Assembly: GCA_023247255.1 (NCBI GenBank)
Contig: JAHFGV010000013.1
Location: 1-39,618 of the forward strand
Length of the DNA: 39,618 bases
Origin: Candidatus Omnitrophota bacterium
GTDB taxonomy: Bacteria; Omnitrophota; Gorgyraeia; Aquiviventales; Aquiviventaceae
Direction of reading: 5' to 3'
Both the position numbers and the translations under genes were made by a program. Positions 4,825 to 35,036 of the stretch are shown in pieces. Position 1 is the first letter of the stretch, and every line of letters starts with the position of its first letter. The notes below the pieces were generated by a model. It ran no database searches. It saw only the letters and a list, made by a program, of their open reading frames with translations, and had not been told where the DNA came from.

Positions 4825-4981
4825 GTAATGAGGATTGTGTCATGTTTCATGAGTCATGTGTCATGAAAAAAGCAGAAAATAAACAGGCATCTCAAGCACG
4901 GCCAAAGTACGCCTTTTGCTTTCCATGACTCATGAAATAGACGTGAGCACTACCACTAACCTCGATGCATTTTGCAAAACC
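4825..4981 (+). repeat. Tripartite dispersed repeat, copy B (between PII genes)
   Basis: Positions 4825-4934 equal 615-724 at 109 of 110 bases. The second block follows directly (AGACGTGAGCACTACCACTAACC... to 4981) without the extra CATGA words seen in copy A. It separates the two PII genes, and no ORF of note is inside. Confidence 0.88.
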
Positions 4982-12366: not shown

Positions 12367-14227
12367 CGGATCCAGGGCTTCTGCGCTGTTTGTCCGTCAC
12401 CCAGAACTCCAGACGTTTTCCAAGCATCAACCGGGTCTGAGCATCCAAAGCCGGCACCGCGCTCAGGAAAATGGTAATGACAGGAACTAAAAGCCATTCC
12501 GCCATGTGAATTGTTTTTCTCAGCCACGGACGTTTGACCGCAGGGCTGGGTAACAGCAACAGGCTGAGCAAACTCGTCGTCAGAAATCCAATCGAGGCCA
12601 GATGGAAGATCGCGAAGGTCACACGGGGAGCCATGTAAAAAGCAACCGAGTCGGAAAATTCGCGTCCCGCACAAAGCGCGGGCAGCCAGCCGAGCACCCC
12701 CAGCAAAAACGGCCACGTGGCCCAGGCCACATGGTCATCGAACAGCTTCCAGGCATGTTGCAACCGTTTGATCCGCGAGATCGAGCAGCTTCGGAGAAAA
12801 GCGCGCATGACAATTGGAAAATTCTCCACCCCCCAGGCCCATCGGCGCTTCTGCCTGTAGACGTTCACCACAGTCTGGAGCCAGGAGTGGGAAGCCGCCA
12901 CATCCATCGAGACCGTTACATACATCGGCACCACACGGTAGTTTCCTTCGTAATGGATGAATGCTTTCCAGAAGATGGCGGAATCATCAGAGATTATGTC
13001 CACCGGCCAGTAGCCGACTTCAACCAGGGCCTTAAAACTCATGCTGTGGCTCGAGAAAGTCACCAGCTGTTCGGGATGAGTGGCTTCGATCAATTGAAAA
13101 AACGAAGCGCCTACATCCAGCACTCTCGCAAAGCCCGGGACCTCCCAGATGTTGTTGTGATAAACCGGAATCGGTTGAAAACTCACTTGGGTTCGATCCG
13201 GACACAGCATGAAGGAATAGGTCAAACACCCAAAGTACTGAGGGCTGACCACGGTATCGGCGTCGAAACAGGAAACGATTACACGATCGAAGGAAATGTC
13301 GCGCCCACTAAGATACAAAGCCGCGGCCTTTGCGGCATGGGTGATGTTAGCTCCTTTCACCCGCGTTTCACCGGGCACGGCATCCGGATGGACTACGACA
13401 AGGCAATCAAAGAAATGATCTTGATACTGCTGTCGTACCGCATAAGCATCGGCCTGAACCGCAGAGCTGGCCCGTCCTTCCACGGCCAGCACGACCAAAA
13501 ACTGACTGGAAGGAAACGGTTGCTGGATTAAACGCCGGACGCCTGGCTCATACATCTCTCGACGTTCCTTGGCGATGGGAATGATGACCAGATGATAGAT
13601 CTCGCTGGAAGATGCAGGCAATCGACCGTGACGCAACCCCGCCATCGGGCCCACGGCCGAAGGCATGGGCCCAGTTGGTTTGCTTGAACGATTCAAGAGA
13701 GCCGGTGAAATTGTCGATTGACGATTGTCGATTTTCGATTGAACAGGGGGCTTCCAATCGAAAATCCAAAATCGACAATCGAAAATTCCAAGGCAGTTTC
13801 GTGATTCCTTGGGAGGAGAGAAGTTATCAGTGCCACAGGCTTGTCCCTTGGGGCTCCATAAGGGTTGGAGTATCGATGCCTCGGGCAATAATGGGCAGTT
13901 CTTCGAAGAGGGATCGGGTTGTTGGGAATGTCGCAACCTTTCGATGTGTTGATCGAGATCCCGGATGCGTGCGGCCCAATCCACCGTTCGGTCTCGGGAC
14001 AGCTTCAAGTAGGAAAGCACAAGAAACAGCGTCATCGATAACAAGCGCAGGAGCCAGTACAGGTCAAAAGCGATGATCCCTACAGCGGCCAGCAGCGGTT
14101 TCCCAAAAGACAGGGATAACGTTCCCAACAGGATGGCCCAGCTCGTCGCACCCGGAGCCATTTCAAAAAAGCGCTGCTTGAGTCGTTCAGACCCGGTGAG
14201 CCCCTGTCCGGAGAATGAAAAGGGCAT
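12356..14227 (-). CDS. Membrane GT2-type glycosyltransferase with in-frame repeat insertion
   Basis: A 623-residue membrane protein with N-terminal hydrophobic segments (about 25-75), a cytoplasmic family-2-like glycosyltransferase domain and four C-terminal segments. Visible motifs are SCFDADT near 320 (metal-binding DxD), SDDSAIF, and QKRRWAWG near 458 (the QxxRW motif of processive synthases such as cellulose or hyaluronan synthase). It probably polymerises or transfers sugars at the inner membrane; the product is unknown. Residues of roughly 123-198, between the N-terminal helices and the catalytic domain, are the translation of dispersed repeats (13634-13860) and do not look like protein of this family. 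The frame stays open. It follows a PEGA-domain gene by only 2 bp. Confidence 0.82.
   Translation of the reverse strand: MPFSFSGQGLTGSERLKQRFFEMAPGATSWAILLGTLSLSFGKPLLAAVGIIAFDLYWLLRLLSMTLFLVLSYLKLSRDRTVDWAARIRDLDQHIERLRHSQQPDPSSKNCPLLPEASILQPLWSPKGQACGTDNFSPPKESRNCLGIFDCRFWIFDWKPPVQSKIDNRQSTISPALLNRSSKPTGPMPSAVGPMAGLRHGRLPASSSEIYHLVIIPIAKERREMYEPGVRRLIQQPFPSSQFLVVLAVEGRASSAVQADAYAVRQQYQDHFFDCLVVVHPDAVPGETRVKGANITHAAKAAALYLSGRDISFDRVIVSCFDADTVVSPQYFGCLTYSFMLCPDRTQVSFQPIPVYHNNIWEVPGFARVLDVGASFFQLIEATHPEQLVTFSSHSMSFKALVEVGYWPVDIISDDSAIFWKAFIHYEGNYRVVPMYVTVSMDVAASHSWLQTVVNVYRQKRRWAWGVENFPIVMRAFLRSCSISRIKRLQHAWKLFDDHVAWATWPFLLGVLGWLPALCAGREFSDSVAFYMAPRVTFAIFHLASIGFLTTSLLSLLLLPSPAVKRPWLRKTIHMAEWLLVPVITIFLSAVPALDAQTRLMLGKRLEFWVTDKQRRSPGSDAG
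13634..13860. repeat. Composite palindromic repeat inserted in frame in the glycosyltransferase gene
   Basis: Starts with CAACCCCGCC and ends with GGGGCTCCATA, as does the insertion in the MFS gene at 24280-24533. Modules: 13637-13691 (55 bp, 53 equal to 24406-24460, with a GGGCCCA...TGGGCCC palindrome); a block of ATTGTCGATT/AATCGAAAAT words forming inverted repeats (about 13708-13790); and 13777-13857, the 81-bp repeat also found at 63-143. All of it is translated within the host gene. Confidence 0.85.
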
Positions 14228-17510: not shown

Positions 17511-17537
17511 CTTTCTACGATACAGTACTCACATCTG

Positions 17538-17740
17538 TTTCATGTTTCATGTGTCATGAGTCATGGAAAGCAAAAGGAGCCCTTTGGCCATGCTTGAGAT
17601 GCCTGTTTATTTTCTGCTTTTTCATGACACATAAACCATGAAACATGACACAGACGTGAGTACTGGATCTTAGAACTATGATTTACTTTCTTCTTGGCCC
17701 CGGTCCACTTGGCCACTAACCTCGATGCATTTTGCAAAAC
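17538..17740. repeat. Tripartite dispersed repeat, copy C (bufA-bufB gap), core inverted
   Basis: The core (about 17551-17632) is the reverse complement of the core in copies A and B (same AAAATAAACAGGCATCTCAAGC word, read on the other strand), while the right block (CACAGACGTGAG, then CCACTAACCTCGATGCATTTTGCAAAAC to 17740) keeps the same strand. About 50 bp of unrelated DNA is inserted inside the right block. CATGA-word arms flank the core on both sides as an inverted repeat. Confidence 0.8.
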
Positions 17741-23743: not shown

Positions 23744-25372
23744 ATGCAAACAAACATGTCCATGCCCGATCGATTGACCCCTAACCCAGCGATCCAGAAA
23801 AGTCTGAGGGTGGCCTGGAAAGAAGGTATCCCAGCCGCCATCATGATCGGGATCATGGATTATTATGTGGTCCCCTTCGGGTTGTTCCTGCATGCAAGCA
23901 CCCAACAGATCGGTTGGCTCGTCGCTCTGCCGCACCTTTTGGGAGCCGCATCTTTGTTGTTCACGGTCAAGGCGGTGAACCTGATCGGATCCCGGCTTCG
24001 GTTCATCGTTCGGGGGACTTTCCTGCAGGCCAGCCTTCTGATCCCTGTAGCGAGCTTGGCACTCATCCGGATTCCAAATCAGGTAACGGGGTTGATCCTG
24101 TTCATTATCTTCTACCGGATGCTTTTCAACCTCGTGGGCCCTCCTTGGGGCTCCCTGATGAGCGATTACCTTCCGGCCCACCAACGCGGCCGTTATTTCG
24201 GTAGCCGGAGTCGAGTCGTCGGAGCCTCTCAAGTAGCGGGAATCATCCTGGCCGGCGTGACGCTGTTTCTCACTCAACCCAACCCCGCCGTTGCGCCACG
24301 GCCGAAAGCCGTGTGCGACACAGCAGTTAGCAGCCGATGGGTGGGCGGGTGTCGTCCCATCGGGACGGAGTTGCCGGTGCCACAGGCTCATCCCGTGGGG
24401 CTCCTCCCCGCCATCGGGCCCACGGCCGAAGGCATGGGCCCAGTTCGTTTGCTTCAACGAACGGGTGGGCGGGATGTCGCCCCACTCGAAGCGGCCTTGT
24501 CGGTGCCACAGGCTCATCCCGTGGGGCTCCATACTCCCGCTGTGGGTTTTTTCCTCATCTTTATGTTCGCGGCGAGCGGACGCTTTCTCTCCAGCCATTA
24601 CCTCACCCAGATGGTTGATTTGCCCTCGCGCCAGACTCCGCAGAGCGATTTCACTTTCCTGATGTTCATCCGTCGTTTTAGGGAAAGCAACTTCGTCAAG
24701 TTCGCCTTCTACGTCTCCAGTGTCCTGTTCACCACGTTCTTGGCCGCTCCCTATTTCAGCGTTTACATGCTGCGTGACTTGCAATTCAGCTACCTTTCCT
24801 ACATGGCCATCCACGTGTCTGGAATGACGGCGAGCTTCTTGGCCTTTCCGGTTTGGGGCCGACACGCGGACGTCGTCGGAAACGCGAAGGTCCTGAAGAC
24901 CACAGGCCTGTTGATTCCAATGATCCCCTTCTTATGGCTGATTGGCCGATACCCCCTGTATCTGATGATGGTCGAGATGCTCTCGGGTTTCATCTGGGGT
25001 GGGTTCAACCTTTCCGCGACCAATTTCATCTACGACGCGGTCAGCTCTGAAAAGCGCGTGCGGTGCCTGGGTTACTTCAACCTGATCAATGGAGTGGCGA
25101 TGTTCGCCGGGGCCGCATGCGGGGGATGGTTGGGCGATCGTCTGCCGCCGTTGTTGGGCTTTCGGCTGCTGAGCCTGATCATGCTTTCCGGACTCTTGCG
25201 TCTTCTGGCTCACGGGACACTGGCCTGCGTCTTTCGAGAGGTGCGTGCCACCAGCCGGCGCATCTCCAGCATGCAACTATTCTTCAGCGTTGTAGGGATT
25301 CGGCCTTTGGCCGGTGAGGCTCGTGAAAGTATCTTTGGGGATTGGACGAAACGACCTGGGTGTTCGACTTAG
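23744..25372 (+). CDS. Major facilitator transporter with in-frame repeat insertion
   Basis: A 542-residue MFS protein with about 12 helices. GSLMSDYLPAHQRGRYFGSR is the loop motif between helices 4 and 5, and PVWGRHADVVGNAKVL the equivalent motif of the second half. Residues of about 179-263 (AVAPRPKAVCD... to SVPQAHPVGLHTPAV) are translated repeat DNA inserted between helix 5 (AGIILAGVTLFL) and helix 6 (FFLIFMFAASGR), in a loop. The frame is maintained, so the gene may still work. No substrate can be read. The start at 23744 is the first of three nearby ATGs. Confidence 0.8.
   Translation: MQTNMSMPDRLTPNPAIQKSLRVAWKEGIPAAIMIGIMDYYVVPFGLFLHASTQQIGWLVALPHLLGAASLLFTVKAVNLIGSRLRFIVRGTFLQASLLIPVASLALIRIPNQVTGLILFIIFYRMLFNLVGPPWGSLMSDYLPAHQRGRYFGSRSRVVGASQVAGIILAGVTLFLTQPNPAVAPRPKAVCDTAVSSRWVGGCRPIGTELPVPQAHPVGLLPAIGPTAEGMGPVRLLQRTGGRDVAPLEAALSVPQAHPVGLHTPAVGFFLIFMFAASGRFLSSHYLTQMVDLPSRQTPQSDFTFLMFIRRFRESNFVKFAFYVSSVLFTTFLAAPYFSVYMLRDLQFSYLSYMAIHVSGMTASFLAFPVWGRHADVVGNAKVLKTTGLLIPMIPFLWLIGRYPLYLMMVEMLSGFIWGGFNLSATNFIYDAVSSEKRVRCLGYFNLINGVAMFAGAACGGWLGDRLPPLLGFRLLSLIMLSGLLRLLAHGTLACVFREVRATSRRISSMQLFFSVVGIRPLAGEARESIFGDWTKRPGCST
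24280..24533. repeat. Composite palindromic repeat inserted in frame in the MFS gene
   Basis: Bounded by CAACCCCGCC and GGGGCTCCATA as at 13634-13860. It holds a CACGGC-CGAAA-GCCGTG hairpin (24297-24313), two identical 30-bp units at 24375-24404 and 24501-24530, and between them the module 24406-24460 (53 of 55 equal to 13637-13691). Exact ends are uncertain by a few bases. Confidence 0.85.
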
Positions 25373-31558: not shown

Positions 31559-31933
31559 ATGAAACCGGCTCAACGATGTCCATCCTGTAACGCCACGATG
31601 CAACTGGAGCGGTTGCGCTGTCCCAGTTGCCACACGATGGTCGAAGGTAACTTCCGCTGGCCGCGTCTGTGTAGGCTCAGCGGTTCCGATCAGCAGCTCA
31701 TCGAGATGTTGGTCCTGGCCAGCGGAAGCCTCAAGGCGGTTGCCAAGAAGCTGGGTGTGTCGTATCCGACGATCCGCAAGCGGTTGGATGAGTTGATTCG
31801 GAGGATCGAAGATGAGGTGAAAACCGACACGGCCTATCGAGCACAGCTTCTGCGAGACGTCAAGGCCGGCAAGCGCACCGCTGAGGAGGTTACACGACTG
31901 CTACGTCAAGAGGAAGGAGGCAGTGATGAGTGA
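31559..31933 (+). CDS. DUF2089 protein: zinc ribbon plus helix-turn-helix
   Basis: A 124-residue protein. An N-terminal four-Cys zinc ribbon (CPSC at 7-10 and 20-23) is followed by a helix-turn-helix (about 45-80: GSLKAVAKKLGVSYPTIRKRLDELI) and a C-terminal SHOCT-like tail (VKAGKRTAEEVTRLL). DUF2089 proteins are probable DNA-binding regulators found in operons of membrane stress genes. GGGAGGGG at 31548-31555 sets ATG 31559. Its 3' end overlaps the SHOCT-LemA gene by 8 bp. Autoregulation through the GTTAAAC repeats upstream is a reasonable hypothesis. Confidence 0.88.
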   Translation: MKPAQRCPSCNATMQLERLRCPSCHTMVEGNFRWPRLCRLSGSDQQLIEMLVLASGSLKAVAKKLGVSYPTIRKRLDELIRRIEDEVKTDTAYRAQLLRDVKAGKRTAEEVTRLLRQEEGGSDE

Positions 31934-33008
31934 GCGTGAAGCGATTGAACAGATGATTCGTGAGGGACGCCTCGGCGCCGATGAAGGCCTGAAATTGTTA
32001 GAGGCCTTCGAGGTGGCTCAAGCGCGCGATTCAGCGCTCCGGGAGGAACTACGGCATCGGCGTCGGAAGCAGGCTACCGGATGGATGGGTTGGATGATGA
32101 GCCTGCTTCTTGTAGGAATTGTCTGTGGATGGATCGGTGCCAAGACGACACCAACCGATTCTCACACGGCTGCCACATCCGGGAGTTTAGCTCAACAGAT
32201 GCAGGATCTGCTGGGTGAGGACATCAATCAAGCGATTGCCCGTATGGAGCATGTGCTTCGATCCCCCAGCGGCATTGCCGCAGACTACTACTCTTTGGGG
32301 TTCGCTTACCAGCTTCGCTACCAGGTCTCTAAAGATGAAGCTGACCAAAAACGCTCTGCCCAGGTCTGGGCTCGGGCACAACAACTCGAAAGGAGGACGG
32401 CAATGAAGGGCAATCCTGCTCTGTTTGGATTGTTGTTCGTCATCGTCATTGGCACAGCGGTGATCCTGTGGATCATGGCGCTCTACAACGGTCTGGCCAA
32501 GGCGGATGAGCGAATCAACGAGCGCTGGGCTCAGGTGGAAGCGGTGCTTCAGCGTCGGTTGGATTTGATTCCGCAACTCGTCGAGACGGTCAAAGGCTAT
32601 GCTGTTCATGAGCGCGAGACGCTTACAGCCATAACACAGGCACGGGCCAAGACCTTGGGGATCCTTCAGGCAACCGGCGGCCAGGCGCCTGAGAGTGCAA
32701 AGACGATGATCCAGGTCAATGAAGCGCAACAGGAAATGTCCCATGCAATCAGTAGGTTATTGGCCCTGGTGGAGCAGTATCCGGACCTGAAGGCGGGTAC
32801 CAACTTCCTCACCCTTCAGGATCAGTTGGAAGGAACGGAGAATCGCATCTCGGTGGAACGCCAGCGCTATAACGAAGTCGTGAGAGCCTACAATGCGAAG
32901 CTGCGTGTGTTTCCCTCAAACGCGGTAGCGGGTTGGTTCGGGTACGAGCCACGTGGCTATTTCGAATCCAAGGCTGGGGCAGAGGAACCTGTCCCCGTGA
33001 AATTTTAA
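31926..33008 (+). CDS. lemA: SHOCT-like membrane domain fused in frame to LemA
   Basis: A 360-residue reading frame with two parts. Residues 1-159 have a SHOCT-like helical unit (EAIEQMIREGRLGADEGLKLLEAF), a membrane helix (about 52-75) and a TPR-like segment. From residue 160, MKGNPALFGLLFVIVIG begins LemA: an anchor helix, ADERINERWAQVEAVLQRRLDLIPQLVETVKGYA, and a long coiled-coil body ending FPSNAVAGWFGYEPRGYFE. LemA proteins of about 200 residues normally start at this point. An excellent AAGGAGG lies before ATG 32403, so LemA is probably also made alone. The fusion may be natural or due to an indel. LemA commonly pairs with TPM-domain proteins, as here. Confidence 0.85.
   Translation: MSEREAIEQMIREGRLGADEGLKLLEAFEVAQARDSALREELRHRRRKQATGWMGWMMSLLLVGIVCGWIGAKTTPTDSHTAATSGSLAQQMQDLLGEDINQAIARMEHVLRSPSGIAADYYSLGFAYQLRYQVSKDEADQKRSAQVWARAQQLERRTAMKGNPALFGLLFVIVIGTAVILWIMALYNGLAKADERINERWAQVEAVLQRRLDLIPQLVETVKGYAVHERETLTAITQARAKTLGILQATGGQAPESAKTMIQVNEAQQEMSHAISRLLALVEQYPDLKAGTNFLTLQDQLEGTENRISVERQRYNEVVRAYNAKLRVFPSNAVAGWFGYEPRGYFESKAGAEEPVPVKF
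32403..33008 (+). CDS. lemA: Probable internally initiated LemA
   Basis: ATG 32403 has AAGGAGG 6-7 bp upstream. The overlapping ATGA in the other frame is the classical coupled stop-start, as if the upstream gene once ended there. The 201-residue product is a complete LemA protein. Confidence 0.6.
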   Translation: MKGNPALFGLLFVIVIGTAVILWIMALYNGLAKADERINERWAQVEAVLQRRLDLIPQLVETVKGYAVHERETLTAITQARAKTLGILQATGGQAPESAKTMIQVNEAQQEMSHAISRLLALVEQYPDLKAGTNFLTLQDQLEGTENRISVERQRYNEVVRAYNAKLRVFPSNAVAGWFGYEPRGYFESKAGAEEPVPVKF

Positions 33009-33016
33009 GGAACGCA

Positions 33017-33574
33017 ATGGGCAGAGTGCGACGTTACGCAATCTCCCTAAGAGTGCCTAACATAATGAGCACATGGCCGCGTTGCGGTGAAAGATGGCCA
33101 GATGCAAGGAGTGACGACGAAGGCGTAGCCGAAGGAGCGCTACGCCGAGGAGGAACGACGCAGCAGATGGCCATCTTTCACCGCAACCCGAAGGGCTGGG
33201 CGGAATTGCTTCGCCGCGCTGCGTTGCTCGTCGTCGCCGTACTTCTATCAGTACGGCTTCCCTCCTGGCGCCTTGCGCGTCGAAGCAATTGCGCCCAGCG
33301 CGACCATGCGATCATTATGTTAGGCACTCTAAGTCTACTCGGATTGGCAACAGCGCTCTACCTGGATGCCTCAATGTGCCGACTGTGCCCAGTCGATTCC
33401 GTGAGCGCAAGAGAGCGTGGTTGTTACACGGGCCTTGAATTGTGGTTGGGCATGAAATCCCCATCGTGGATCCGAATGACAGAAGGGATTGTGGCCTTCG
33501 CATTGGTTCCGTTGAGTCTGGTTACGTTCCTTTTGCTTCGTGGCCACGCCACAATACATACCCGTGATACCTAA
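33017..33574 (+). CDS. Small membrane protein interrupted in frame by a MITE
   Basis: The frame of 185 residues is made of MGRVRRYAISL, then 94 codons of a transposable element, then SLLGLATALYLDASMC and a second helix (VAFALVPLSLVTFLLLRG). Removing the 277-bp element plus one 5-bp target copy (282 bp) restores a 91-residue protein with two membrane helices and a Cys-rich loop (Cys in SMCRLCPVD and RGCYTG). I do not recognise the family; the Cys pattern slightly recalls VKOR-type redox proteins, but that is weak. AAGGA precedes ATG 33017. Expression today could also start at an ATG in the right terminal repeat (33318). Its place between lemA and a TPM gene suggests membrane stress or redox function. 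Confidence 0.7.
   Translation: MGRVRRYAISLRVPNIMSTWPRCGERWPDARSDDEGVAEGALRRGGTTQQMAIFHRNPKGWAELLRRAALLVVAVLLSVRLPSWRLARRSNCAQRDHAIIMLGTLSLLGLATALYLDASMCRLCPVDSVSARERGCYTGLELWLGMKSPSWIRMTEGIVAFALVPLSLVTFLLLRGHATIHTRDT
33052..33328. mobile_element. 277-bp MITE with 5-bp target duplication CTAAG
   Basis: Terminal repeats AGTGCCTAACATAATGA and TCATTATGTTAGGCACT are perfect for 17 bp and 27 of 30 overall. CTAAG occurs at 33047-33051 and 33329-33333, a clean target duplication. Inside are two further arms: 33081-33100 with 33168-33187 (20 of 20) and 33195-33213 with 33281-33299 (18 of 19), each closed by a smaller hairpin, so single-stranded DNA could fold as a three-way cloverleaf. A GCTGCGTTGCTC...GCGCCTTGC module is shared with 11850-11910. 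No transposase is encoded. Confidence 0.88.
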
Positions 33575-33587
33575 CAGGAGCCCACAT

Positions 33588-35036
33588 ATGCGGCACACAG
33601 CGCAACGCTTGCACAGAGGCTATTGCCTACTCGCTCTCCTAATCCTGTTGGTTCCCTACTCATGGGCGGATAGTCCTGCCTATCCCTCTCTGGACAAACC
33701 TCCAAAAGGAGAGTTTGTGGCTGAGGAAGCGGGTTTGATCCAGCCTGAGCAGAAGGACCATATGAACCAGCTCTTGCAAGCCGTGTTGCGCGACCTCGAC
33801 ATCGAGCTCGACGTCGCGTCTGTCCCTTCACTCTACGGACTGGACATCAACACGTTTACCAATGGACTTTTTGAAAACTGGAAGGTTGGCAGTCGAACCA
33901 AGGCTTCTCGAGGTCTTTTGCTTGTCATCGCTGCCAAGGAGCAGATCGTCCGGTTTGAGGTCAGCTATGAACTCGAGGGCATTTTCACCGACTCGTTTGT
34001 CTCGTACATCGAGCATAAGCAGATGGCGCCTTACTTCGAGCATCAGCGGATTAGTCAAGGGATCGAGGCAACGGTTGAGCTGATCGCCAGACGTGCGTAT
34101 GAAGGAGTCTTGGGACACAGCTACGATCCAACCGCTCAGGGGCCTTCTGATCTGAGCGGGTATCGAAGTGGAGGAGCTGGTGCGCAGACGAGCGTGACCC
34201 TGAACAGCGCAGCCACACCCAAGCCTCTAGACGTTGGCATTACCGCTCCAGAAGCGTTCGGCGCGCAATCCACACCGGCAGAGGCTTGGGAGAAGTTTTT
34301 AGAAGTGAATCGTCGGCACATCAAGGATCCACAGCTGGGACTCTACGACGAAGCAGCCAAGGGCTTGATGCGTGGGGTGAGCACCGACGCCGGGCAAGAT
34401 CACATCGCTCAGTTGTACGCCAACAAGGCTTCTACCGTTCGTCAGCAAGGAGACCGAGCGGCCATCCTGTTTCTAGAGGATCCGAACAACCTCTTAGCGC
34501 CGTGGTTCTTTCACAAGGCCACTTGGGGCTGGCAGCTCGACGGCAGCATGTATCCAGAAGTCGTCGGCTACAACCATCTCAACCAATGGTTCTTCAAACG
34601 TCGCGACCATCCGTATACTTTTGCTTTCAGCGACTACCATTTCGATCAGCACGGTTTTGCGTTTTATCGTCCCCAGGCGTCTGCGCAGGGTGGGGGATAT
34701 CTTGGGGTAAGCGCGTACTGGTATGGCTATCAGGGTCAGGGAGTGTTGGTGTATGAAGTCGTTCGAGGAAGCCCGGCTGAACAGGCTGGCCTTGAAGTAG
34801 GGGATATCATCCTCAGTTATGCAGGTGTTCCGGTGACGAAACCAGCGGAGTTCACGAAGCGCATTCGCGCGGATCAGCCCGGCGAAACCGTCACCCTTGA
34901 AATCGTCCGCGGAGCTTTACAAGAGCCATTAACCCTGAGGCTCGATGATGGCAGCGTGGTTGAGGTGCGTCCTGTTACTATTGCGCTCAGTCCTCCGAAA
35001 AGGCTGACGGTGCGTGCGACGTTAGGCGAACGCTGA
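33588..35036 (+). CDS. Secreted TPM-domain and PDZ-domain protein
   Basis: A 482-residue exported protein with a signal peptide (about 1-27, ending YSWAD). The TPM domain (TLP18.3/Psb32/MOLO-1 phosphatase fold) follows at about 38-165 with FVAEEAGLIQPEQKDHMNQ and NWKVGSRTKASRGLLLVIA. A linker and a second domain with repeated Tyr/Trp (WFFHKATWGWQLDG) come next, and a PDZ domain about 400-470 (GSPAEQAGLEVGDIILSYAG). TPM proteins often pair with LemA, and the PDZ addition suggests a protease or chaperone partner at the membrane. AGGAG before ATG 33588 sets the start. Confidence 0.85.
   Translation: MRHTAQRLHRGYCLLALLILLVPYSWADSPAYPSLDKPPKGEFVAEEAGLIQPEQKDHMNQLLQAVLRDLDIELDVASVPSLYGLDINTFTNGLFENWKVGSRTKASRGLLLVIAAKEQIVRFEVSYELEGIFTDSFVSYIEHKQMAPYFEHQRISQGIEATVELIARRAYEGVLGHSYDPTAQGPSDLSGYRSGGAGAQTSVTLNSAATPKPLDVGITAPEAFGAQSTPAEAWEKFLEVNRRHIKDPQLGLYDEAAKGLMRGVSTDAGQDHIAQLYANKASTVRQQGDRAAILFLEDPNNLLAPWFFHKATWGWQLDGSMYPEVVGYNHLNQWFFKRRDHPYTFAFSDYHFDQHGFAFYRPQASAQGGGYLGVSAYWYGYQGQGVLVYEVVRGSPAEQAGLEVGDIILSYAGVPVTKPAEFTKRIRADQPGETVTLEIVRGALQEPLTLRLDDGSVVEVRPVTIALSPPKRLTVRATLGER

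Follow-up and report, generated by a model that had tools for sequence, protein, structure and literature searches.

The stretch of DNA analysed here (the window, 39,618 nt) carries a 279-bp MITE at 33051–33329 on the plus strand. The element is a copy of a family whose core is conserved between genomes and phyla while its closing stem, stem 1, differs between genomes and even within one. In MITEs it is usually the ends that are conserved, so the family inverts the common arrangement. We consider it highly likely that the element is a non-autonomous DNA transposon that was inserted by transposition at C-TAA-G, duplicating TAA, and that its family has a fixed three-way architecture around the conserved core. 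The features of the element are as follows.

33048–33050, plus strand: left copy of the target duplication, TAA (from the sequence and from TWA concordance at related sites)
33051–33329, plus strand: the MITE (from comparison of copies and from the match G000:C29:33051-33329 to covariance model R1, 269 bits)
33051–33069, plus strand: left terminal inverted repeat, GAGTGCCTAACATAATGAG, the 5' side of stem 1 (from stem 1 covariation)
33311–33329, minus strand: right terminal inverted repeat, the 3' side of stem 1 (from the sequence)
33330–33332, plus strand: right copy of the target duplication, TAA (from TWA concordance at related sites)

The boundaries were set by comparison with other copies in the genome and by model R1. 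The original prediction described a 277-bp MITE with terminal repeats that are perfect over 17 bp (27/30 when extended) and a 5-bp duplication of CTAAG. The repeats are indeed a near-perfect inverted pair of GAGTGCCTAACATAATGA, and CTAAG is present on both sides, but related copies place the limits differently. At 79 distinct related insertion sites, the triplet adjoining the GA...TC ends is TAA or TTA (TWA), and in the 48 cases in which both flanks are TWA, the left and right triplets are concordant in 45 (Fisher p = 3e-10). A C lies 5' of TWA at 48 of the 79 sites, and a G lies 3' of it at 48 of the 79. Because the flanking triplets agree over these sites, the duplication is TWA within a preferred C-TWA-G target (TAA at the window copy). 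In CTAAG, the flanking C and G represent preferred target context and coincide with the G and C that terminate the element. CTAAG thus mixes target context with element ends, and the element is therefore 279 bp long and runs from GAG to CTC (GAGTGCCTAACATAATGA...TCATTATGTTAGGCACTC), with a duplication of 3 bp. It contains no transposase ORF and is below the ~600-bp limit for MITEs; its dispersed copies, terminal repeats, and target duplication identify it as a MITE. An attC-like reading of the ends (GCCTAAC/GTTAGGC fits RYYYAAC/GTTRRRY) was dropped: both 7-mers fall inside a longer terminal repeat, and the flanking sequence is duplicated. Several related copies lie a few bases from the stop codon of an ORF, which is expected if C-TAA-G targets include stop codons.

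Further copies, which the original prediction had suggested looking for, are numerous in the window's genome (G000): BLAST gave 37 matches and a pattern search gave 23 terminal-repeat sites. At least 12 copies bear the core. The same ends, or closely related ones, are found on full-length copies in contigs C15 (95% identical), C18, C10, C27, and C4; other copies join the same interior to other ends (GAGTGCGTCCCAGAATCTC on C10 and C48, and GAGCCCATCCCTAAACCC on C53 and C42). One copy on C42 (L014, 1385–1694) has one end of each kind, with GAGCCCATCCC.. on the left, ..GGGACGCACTC on the right, and TTA on both sides. There are also 50-bp copies (on C13, C14, C41, C18, and C54) in which nothing but the two ends is present, with a GCG microhomology at the junction. 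A common flanking repeat on C13, C14, and C15 holds two short copies and one long copy, an indication that loss of the core can take place at an existing site. The alternative that the 50-bp copies are progenitors of the long form is disfavoured, as they have the long form's asymmetric left stem, joined at the GCG microhomology, an arrangement that fits deletion. The flanking repeat itself is palindromic (CAGGCTGCTGAAAAAGG...CCTTTTTGAGCAGCCT) and surrounds the MITE at three loci (C13:78750-78970, C14, and C15; L183, L017, and L184), where the enclosed copy is the 50-bp form twice and the long form once. The interior of this repeat is similar to arm C of the fold described below. Separately, 305-bp variants on C10, C27, and C4 (L004, L005, and L006) contain an extra perfect hairpin, CGCCCTTGACAAGCTTGTCAAGGGCG, in arm C, and similar CTTGACA..TGTCAAG hairpins occur in other copies in this genome (C25 and C42).

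The family extends through the phylum and beyond it. BLAST matches were found in 19 of 59 relatives, and when the hits were extended to their ends they gave elements of 275–305 bp that could be aligned throughout the interior, with ends that vary from genome to genome (GAGTTGGTTTCACAACC, GAACCGGCTTCATACATCC, GAGCTCGTCTCGAAACC, GAGCCTCTCCCGAGGCC, and others). Model R1, which was built from the end class of the window element only, recovers the core from 30 of the 285 phylum genomes, two of them belonging to other classes. Among the matches listed, many Betaproteobacteria have the exact end pattern, as do some Planctomycetota. The betaproteobacterial elements (238–298 bp, with a few of 391–422 bp) share the junction motifs GCGTTGC...GCAACCC...GGGCTGG...CCAGCGC, and the planctomycetal elements (~155 bp) have a single arm. 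Model R1 detected all 20 of the betaproteobacterial elements tested, at 39–129 bits on the better strand (19 elements at 83–129 bits and a 413-bp element at 39 bits), and the six loci used to gauge chance matches yielded no hit with E < 0.05.

Since pairing accounts for part of the R1 score, a profile that scores sequence alone and omits the ends served as a control. Phylum elements with other ends were recovered by this profile with most best hits at E = 1e-18 to 1e-26 and the weakest at ~1e-11; the betaproteobacterial cores were recovered weakly (best E ~1e-5), with all hits at elements, and eight control loci gave no hits. The betaproteobacterial cores are likely to be homologous to the core of the window family. 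No copy of the element was found in the plasmids and phages searched; 13 viral contigs carry the end pattern, and the core motif is in none of them. Short MITEs with the same ends and an unrelated interior (CCCCCTCTCCC...GGGAGAGGGGG) were also seen in betaproteobacterial genomes (L106, L150, and L173).

The original prediction that the element can fold as a three-way cloverleaf with two long arms agrees with our folding analysis. In the predicted architecture, the terminal repeats pair as stem 1, which closes two hairpin arms.

33081–33187, plus strand: arm B, hairpin GTTGCGG...CCGCAAC that has a tip hairpin and, in its purine-rich internal loops, GACGACGA opposite GAGGAGGA (from fold and covariation)
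33195–33299, plus strand: arm C, hairpin GCTGGGCGG...GCCCAGC, with the same purine-rich loop motif on the minus strand (from fold and covariation)

The DNA fold has an energy of -96.4 kcal/mol (z = -11.7), the RNA fold has z = -13.4, and no shuffle was as good in either case. In an alignment of 20 elements, 96.1% of cells are paired and 52 of 85 pairs change on both sides, including 15 of the 18 pairs of stem 1. Double-change cells number 264, as against 72.6 +/- 7.0 in shuffles (0 of 500 reach the observed value); the shuffles leave the relatedness of the elements in place, as do controls with slid partners, in which pairing is only 31–48%. The internal loops are kept across the family alignment where the stems vary. 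In arm B, GACGACGA facing GAGGAGGA would give C-G pairs separated by tandem G.A/A.G, and arm C has the same arrangement on the other strand. Template switching alone would give Watson-Crick changes but should erase conserved mismatched loops.

These properties could reflect selection on DNA or on a transcript. If the core were a structured non-coding RNA, or an mRNA-processing or regulatory structure that spread as a MITE, selection would act on an RNA three-way junction; the strong covariation, the conserved internal loops, the z score of the RNA fold, and the excess of G.T over A.C mismatches (30 to 13) are all compatible with this, and other MITEs act via their RNA (reviewed in PMC2229807). 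We nevertheless regard it as unlikely. G.T makes up just 0.9% of the pairs in stem 1, 2% in the main stems of arms B and C, and 2–5% in the arm tips; such values of 1–5% seem low by general standards for structured RNA. The element is also quasi-symmetric between strands, with many copies matching model R1 about equally on both, and the strand that bears the purine loop motif switches from one arm to the other, which is easier to reconcile with DNA than with a single RNA strand. Scans against Rfam 15 gave no family match over the element, and the only match was a tRNA elsewhere. The scarcity of G.T, the similar scores on both strands, and the strand symmetry of the loop motif favour selection at the DNA level. 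The core is probably kept by selection on DNA hairpins, because the G.A motif lies on opposite strands in the two arms and the covarying pairs are nearly all Watson-Crick. Its role might be to bind a host protein or the transposase, or to form a hairpin that aids mobility. That the core aids mobility is the mechanism we rate as most likely, at roughly even chances.

The conservation of the core is not matched at the ends. In one single-contig genome (G118), four different ends occur on cores that are 0.81–0.90 identical, and the identity between these ends is 0.11–0.50. Within the window's genome, the window copy and copy L007 share core identity of 0.79 and end identity of 0.24, whereas the window copy and copies of its own end class agree in both (cores 0.78–0.82, ends 0.82–0.84). 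Conversely, copies from the window's genome and from Betaproteobacteria have ends that are 0.87–0.95 identical and cores that are weakly similar. Global core identities have a high floor, as gaps are ignored; the case for decoupled cores and ends therefore rests on how copies differ within one genome and on the profile scores. Additional end types were found on CTGAG...AATAAATAATGG elements (L219–L234) and on an element with GGTCGTGTTGACATTG (L218). Most of the CTGAG copies have TA outside both ends; as TA is its own complement, a duplication at these ends is indistinguishable from a longer repeat. The flank type differs with the end, being TA beside CTGAG and TWA beside GAG.

A tentative interpretation, to which we give somewhat less than an even chance, is that these elements form a class defined by its core, in which a double hairpin with strand-symmetric tandem G.A loops has been passed between terminal repeats, and hence transposases, across phyla. 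If so, the core would be an exchangeable mobility module, the opposite of MITEs with conserved ends and an arbitrary middle. The exchange might instead be only apparent, if terminal repeats and core share one history and the ends diverge fast, tracking changing transposases. This second account is possible but more doubtful. It draws on the grading of the ends of relatives into one another (GAGTGCC.., GAGCACC.., GAGCCCC..), on the covariation of the stem 1 pairs, and on a correlation between core and end identity, which is weak (rho 0.16). It fits poorly with G118, where similar cores bear ends at or near chance identity, with the near-identical ends on weakly similar cores in the window's genome and Betaproteobacteria, with the C42 copy that has two end types between TTA flanks, and with the difference in flank type between CTGAG and GAG ends.

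Mobilisation of the element would have been in trans, through a DDE transposase from the IS5 family (IS427/IS1031-like). An enzyme of this type is suggested for the end class of the window element only, because related ISs have GA...TC ends and TA or TNA targets; elements of the CTGAG class may have another mobiliser. In two MITE-bearing betaproteobacteria, DUF4096 ISs have GA...TC ends in the style of the window class (GAAGTCATTTCATAAATG.. beside CTA/TAG in L205 and GAGCCTGTTATGGACTTG.. in L207). The IS1031 group of the IS5 family is reported to duplicate TNA, and ISLrh, a member of this group, to have ends of 17 bp, GAACCTGTCTAGTATCT (PMC12016507); the TWA duplication of the window class fits this. 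The original prediction proposed a search for an autonomous transposon with the same ends, and none was found: in the genomes scanned for them, four transposase families (PF13586, PF01609, PF13359, and PF13340) gave no gene with matching terminal repeats. PF13586 and PF13340 are absent from the window's genome, a 64-contig draft, and PF01609 is present in only 2 of 13 relatives scanned. The two PF13359 genes (ISL2-type IS5) in the window's genome have other ends, the best pair near the gene at L190 being AGATCTGTTGCACAATTG.., and a 6-contig genome (G051) has none of the three transposase families tested there. Fragmented drafts, like many of the genomes used here, tend to lose ISs. A candidate autonomous partner in G320, with an end pair spanning 1986 bp, turned out to be two distinct MITEs with two genes between them and was rejected.

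The element lies within a small membrane-protein gene that is flanked by recognizable neighbours.

31923–33008, plus strand: upstream lemA-type gene (PF04011, domain match)
33017–33574, plus strand: host ORF, 185 codons with the element and 91 without it (ATG preceded by AAGGA)
33588–35036, plus strand: downstream TPM-domain/PDZ gene (PF04536, domain match)

The host ORF begins nine bases downstream of lemA, at 33017, and is preceded by a plausible ribosome-binding site. The MITE would have transposed into a C-TAA-G target at codons 11/12 of the 91-codon frame, duplicating TAA. As the original prediction stated, the element plus one copy of the duplication adds 282 bp, or 94 codons free of stops in the host frame, and the frame is joined exactly, with MGRVRRYAISL before the insert and SLLGLATALY after it. 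The C-terminal 80 host residues match a 92-aa protein of a relative (G005) from which the insert is absent; the match is 38% over 77 residues (E = 5e-14, single comparison) and continuous through the insertion point. The locus of this homologue is not syntenic with the host ORF, and no neighbouring copy of the 91-aa ORF was found at 11 other loci with lemA homologues in the family. The search for an empty site thus yielded a homologue without the insert but no syntenic site.

That the 94 residues are ancestral protein sequence and the repeats coincidental, for which the open frame is the only argument, is already refuted by this homologue, by a 95% identical copy of the element in another context, and by the target duplication. 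The original prediction had named conservation of the segment as protein as the observation that would speak against an insertion, and the homologue lacks it.

The prediction also regarded a length-neutral, fully open insertion as rare. In-frame MITEs are established, as shown by Rickettsia palindromic elements and by Yersinia and Neisseria repeats (PMC2229807, PMC10969869). The 27 long relatives of the window element include 8 whose length is neutral modulo 3, and of their 162 frames 5 are open. Neutral length and an open frame together make roughly a 1% event per insertion. Given many insertions and a dispensable gene, such a fit is unremarkable. As neither neutrality nor openness is a property of the family, chance is the simplest account of the fit; length-neutral openness would then be a coincidence. 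The insertion would have been tolerated either because the host gene is dispensable or because translation still gives the two original transmembrane segments, made from the first ATG or by re-initiation at an ATG in the right terminal repeat. Several in-frame ATGs are added by the insert; an 85-residue protein could start at the one inside the right terminal repeat.

The opposite view, that the in-frame insertion was selected because the MITE donates a peptide, is one we hold to be improbable. The open frame of 94 codons, the in-frame ATGs, and a third hydrophobic stretch predicted within the insert (residues 61–87) speak for it, and Rickettsia palindromic elements supply precedents (PMC10969869, PMC2229807). 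The Rickettsia elements, however, carry a conserved peptide, unlike the window family, in which open frames are few and lengths vary modulo 3. No second in-frame fusion of a family member was found.

Other repeats were noted in the window. A second family (GGTGCCACAGGCTCATCCCGTGGGGCTCC... / CCGCCATCGGGCCCACGGCCGAAGGCATGGGCCCAGTT...) is present at 24339–24530, twice in tandem in an MFS-transporter-like ORF (23744–25372), and at 13637–13691 in a glycosyltransferase-like ORF; both ORFs appear to carry it in frame. A dispersed repeat of ~110 bp has three copies, 92–99% identical, at 615–744, 4825–4935, and 17535–17652.

MITEs are usually classified by their terminal repeats, because these are what the transposase sees. 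Conservation of a folded core between changing ends points to a function for the middle, whether as a DNA hairpin, a protein site, or an RNA. A covariance model finds such elements whatever their ends, and they may have escaped searches based on terminal repeats or on Rfam. Searches of openly available papers by sequence string and by keyword found no description of the family, and a cloverleaf family with a conserved core and variable ends appears to be undescribed in the literature covered.

Each of the known systems that the family resembles also differs from it. PIF/Harbinger (Tourist-type) MITEs of eukaryotes have a 3-bp TWA target duplication, as does the window family, which differs in its bacterial host; no homology is claimed, and Tourist MITEs are not known to have a conserved fold in their interior. 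IS5-family MITEs (IS427/IS1031-type) have in common with the window family GA...TC repeats of ~17–20 bp, a 3-bp T-A duplication, non-autonomy, and many copies; the window family differs in that no autonomous partner with matching ends was found and in that its interior is a conserved double hairpin common to unrelated ends. Rickettsia palindromic elements are likewise small palindromic repeats in frame within protein genes (PMC10969869, PMC2229807), but they carry a conserved peptide and are in frame repeatedly, whereas open frames are rare in the window family and the match in the host ORF looks accidental. Caulobacter CIR elements also have two long inverted-repeat arms and a linker (PMC2229807), but they lack a closing stem of terminal repeats and are not found inside genes, whereas the window family combines terminal repeats with two arms.
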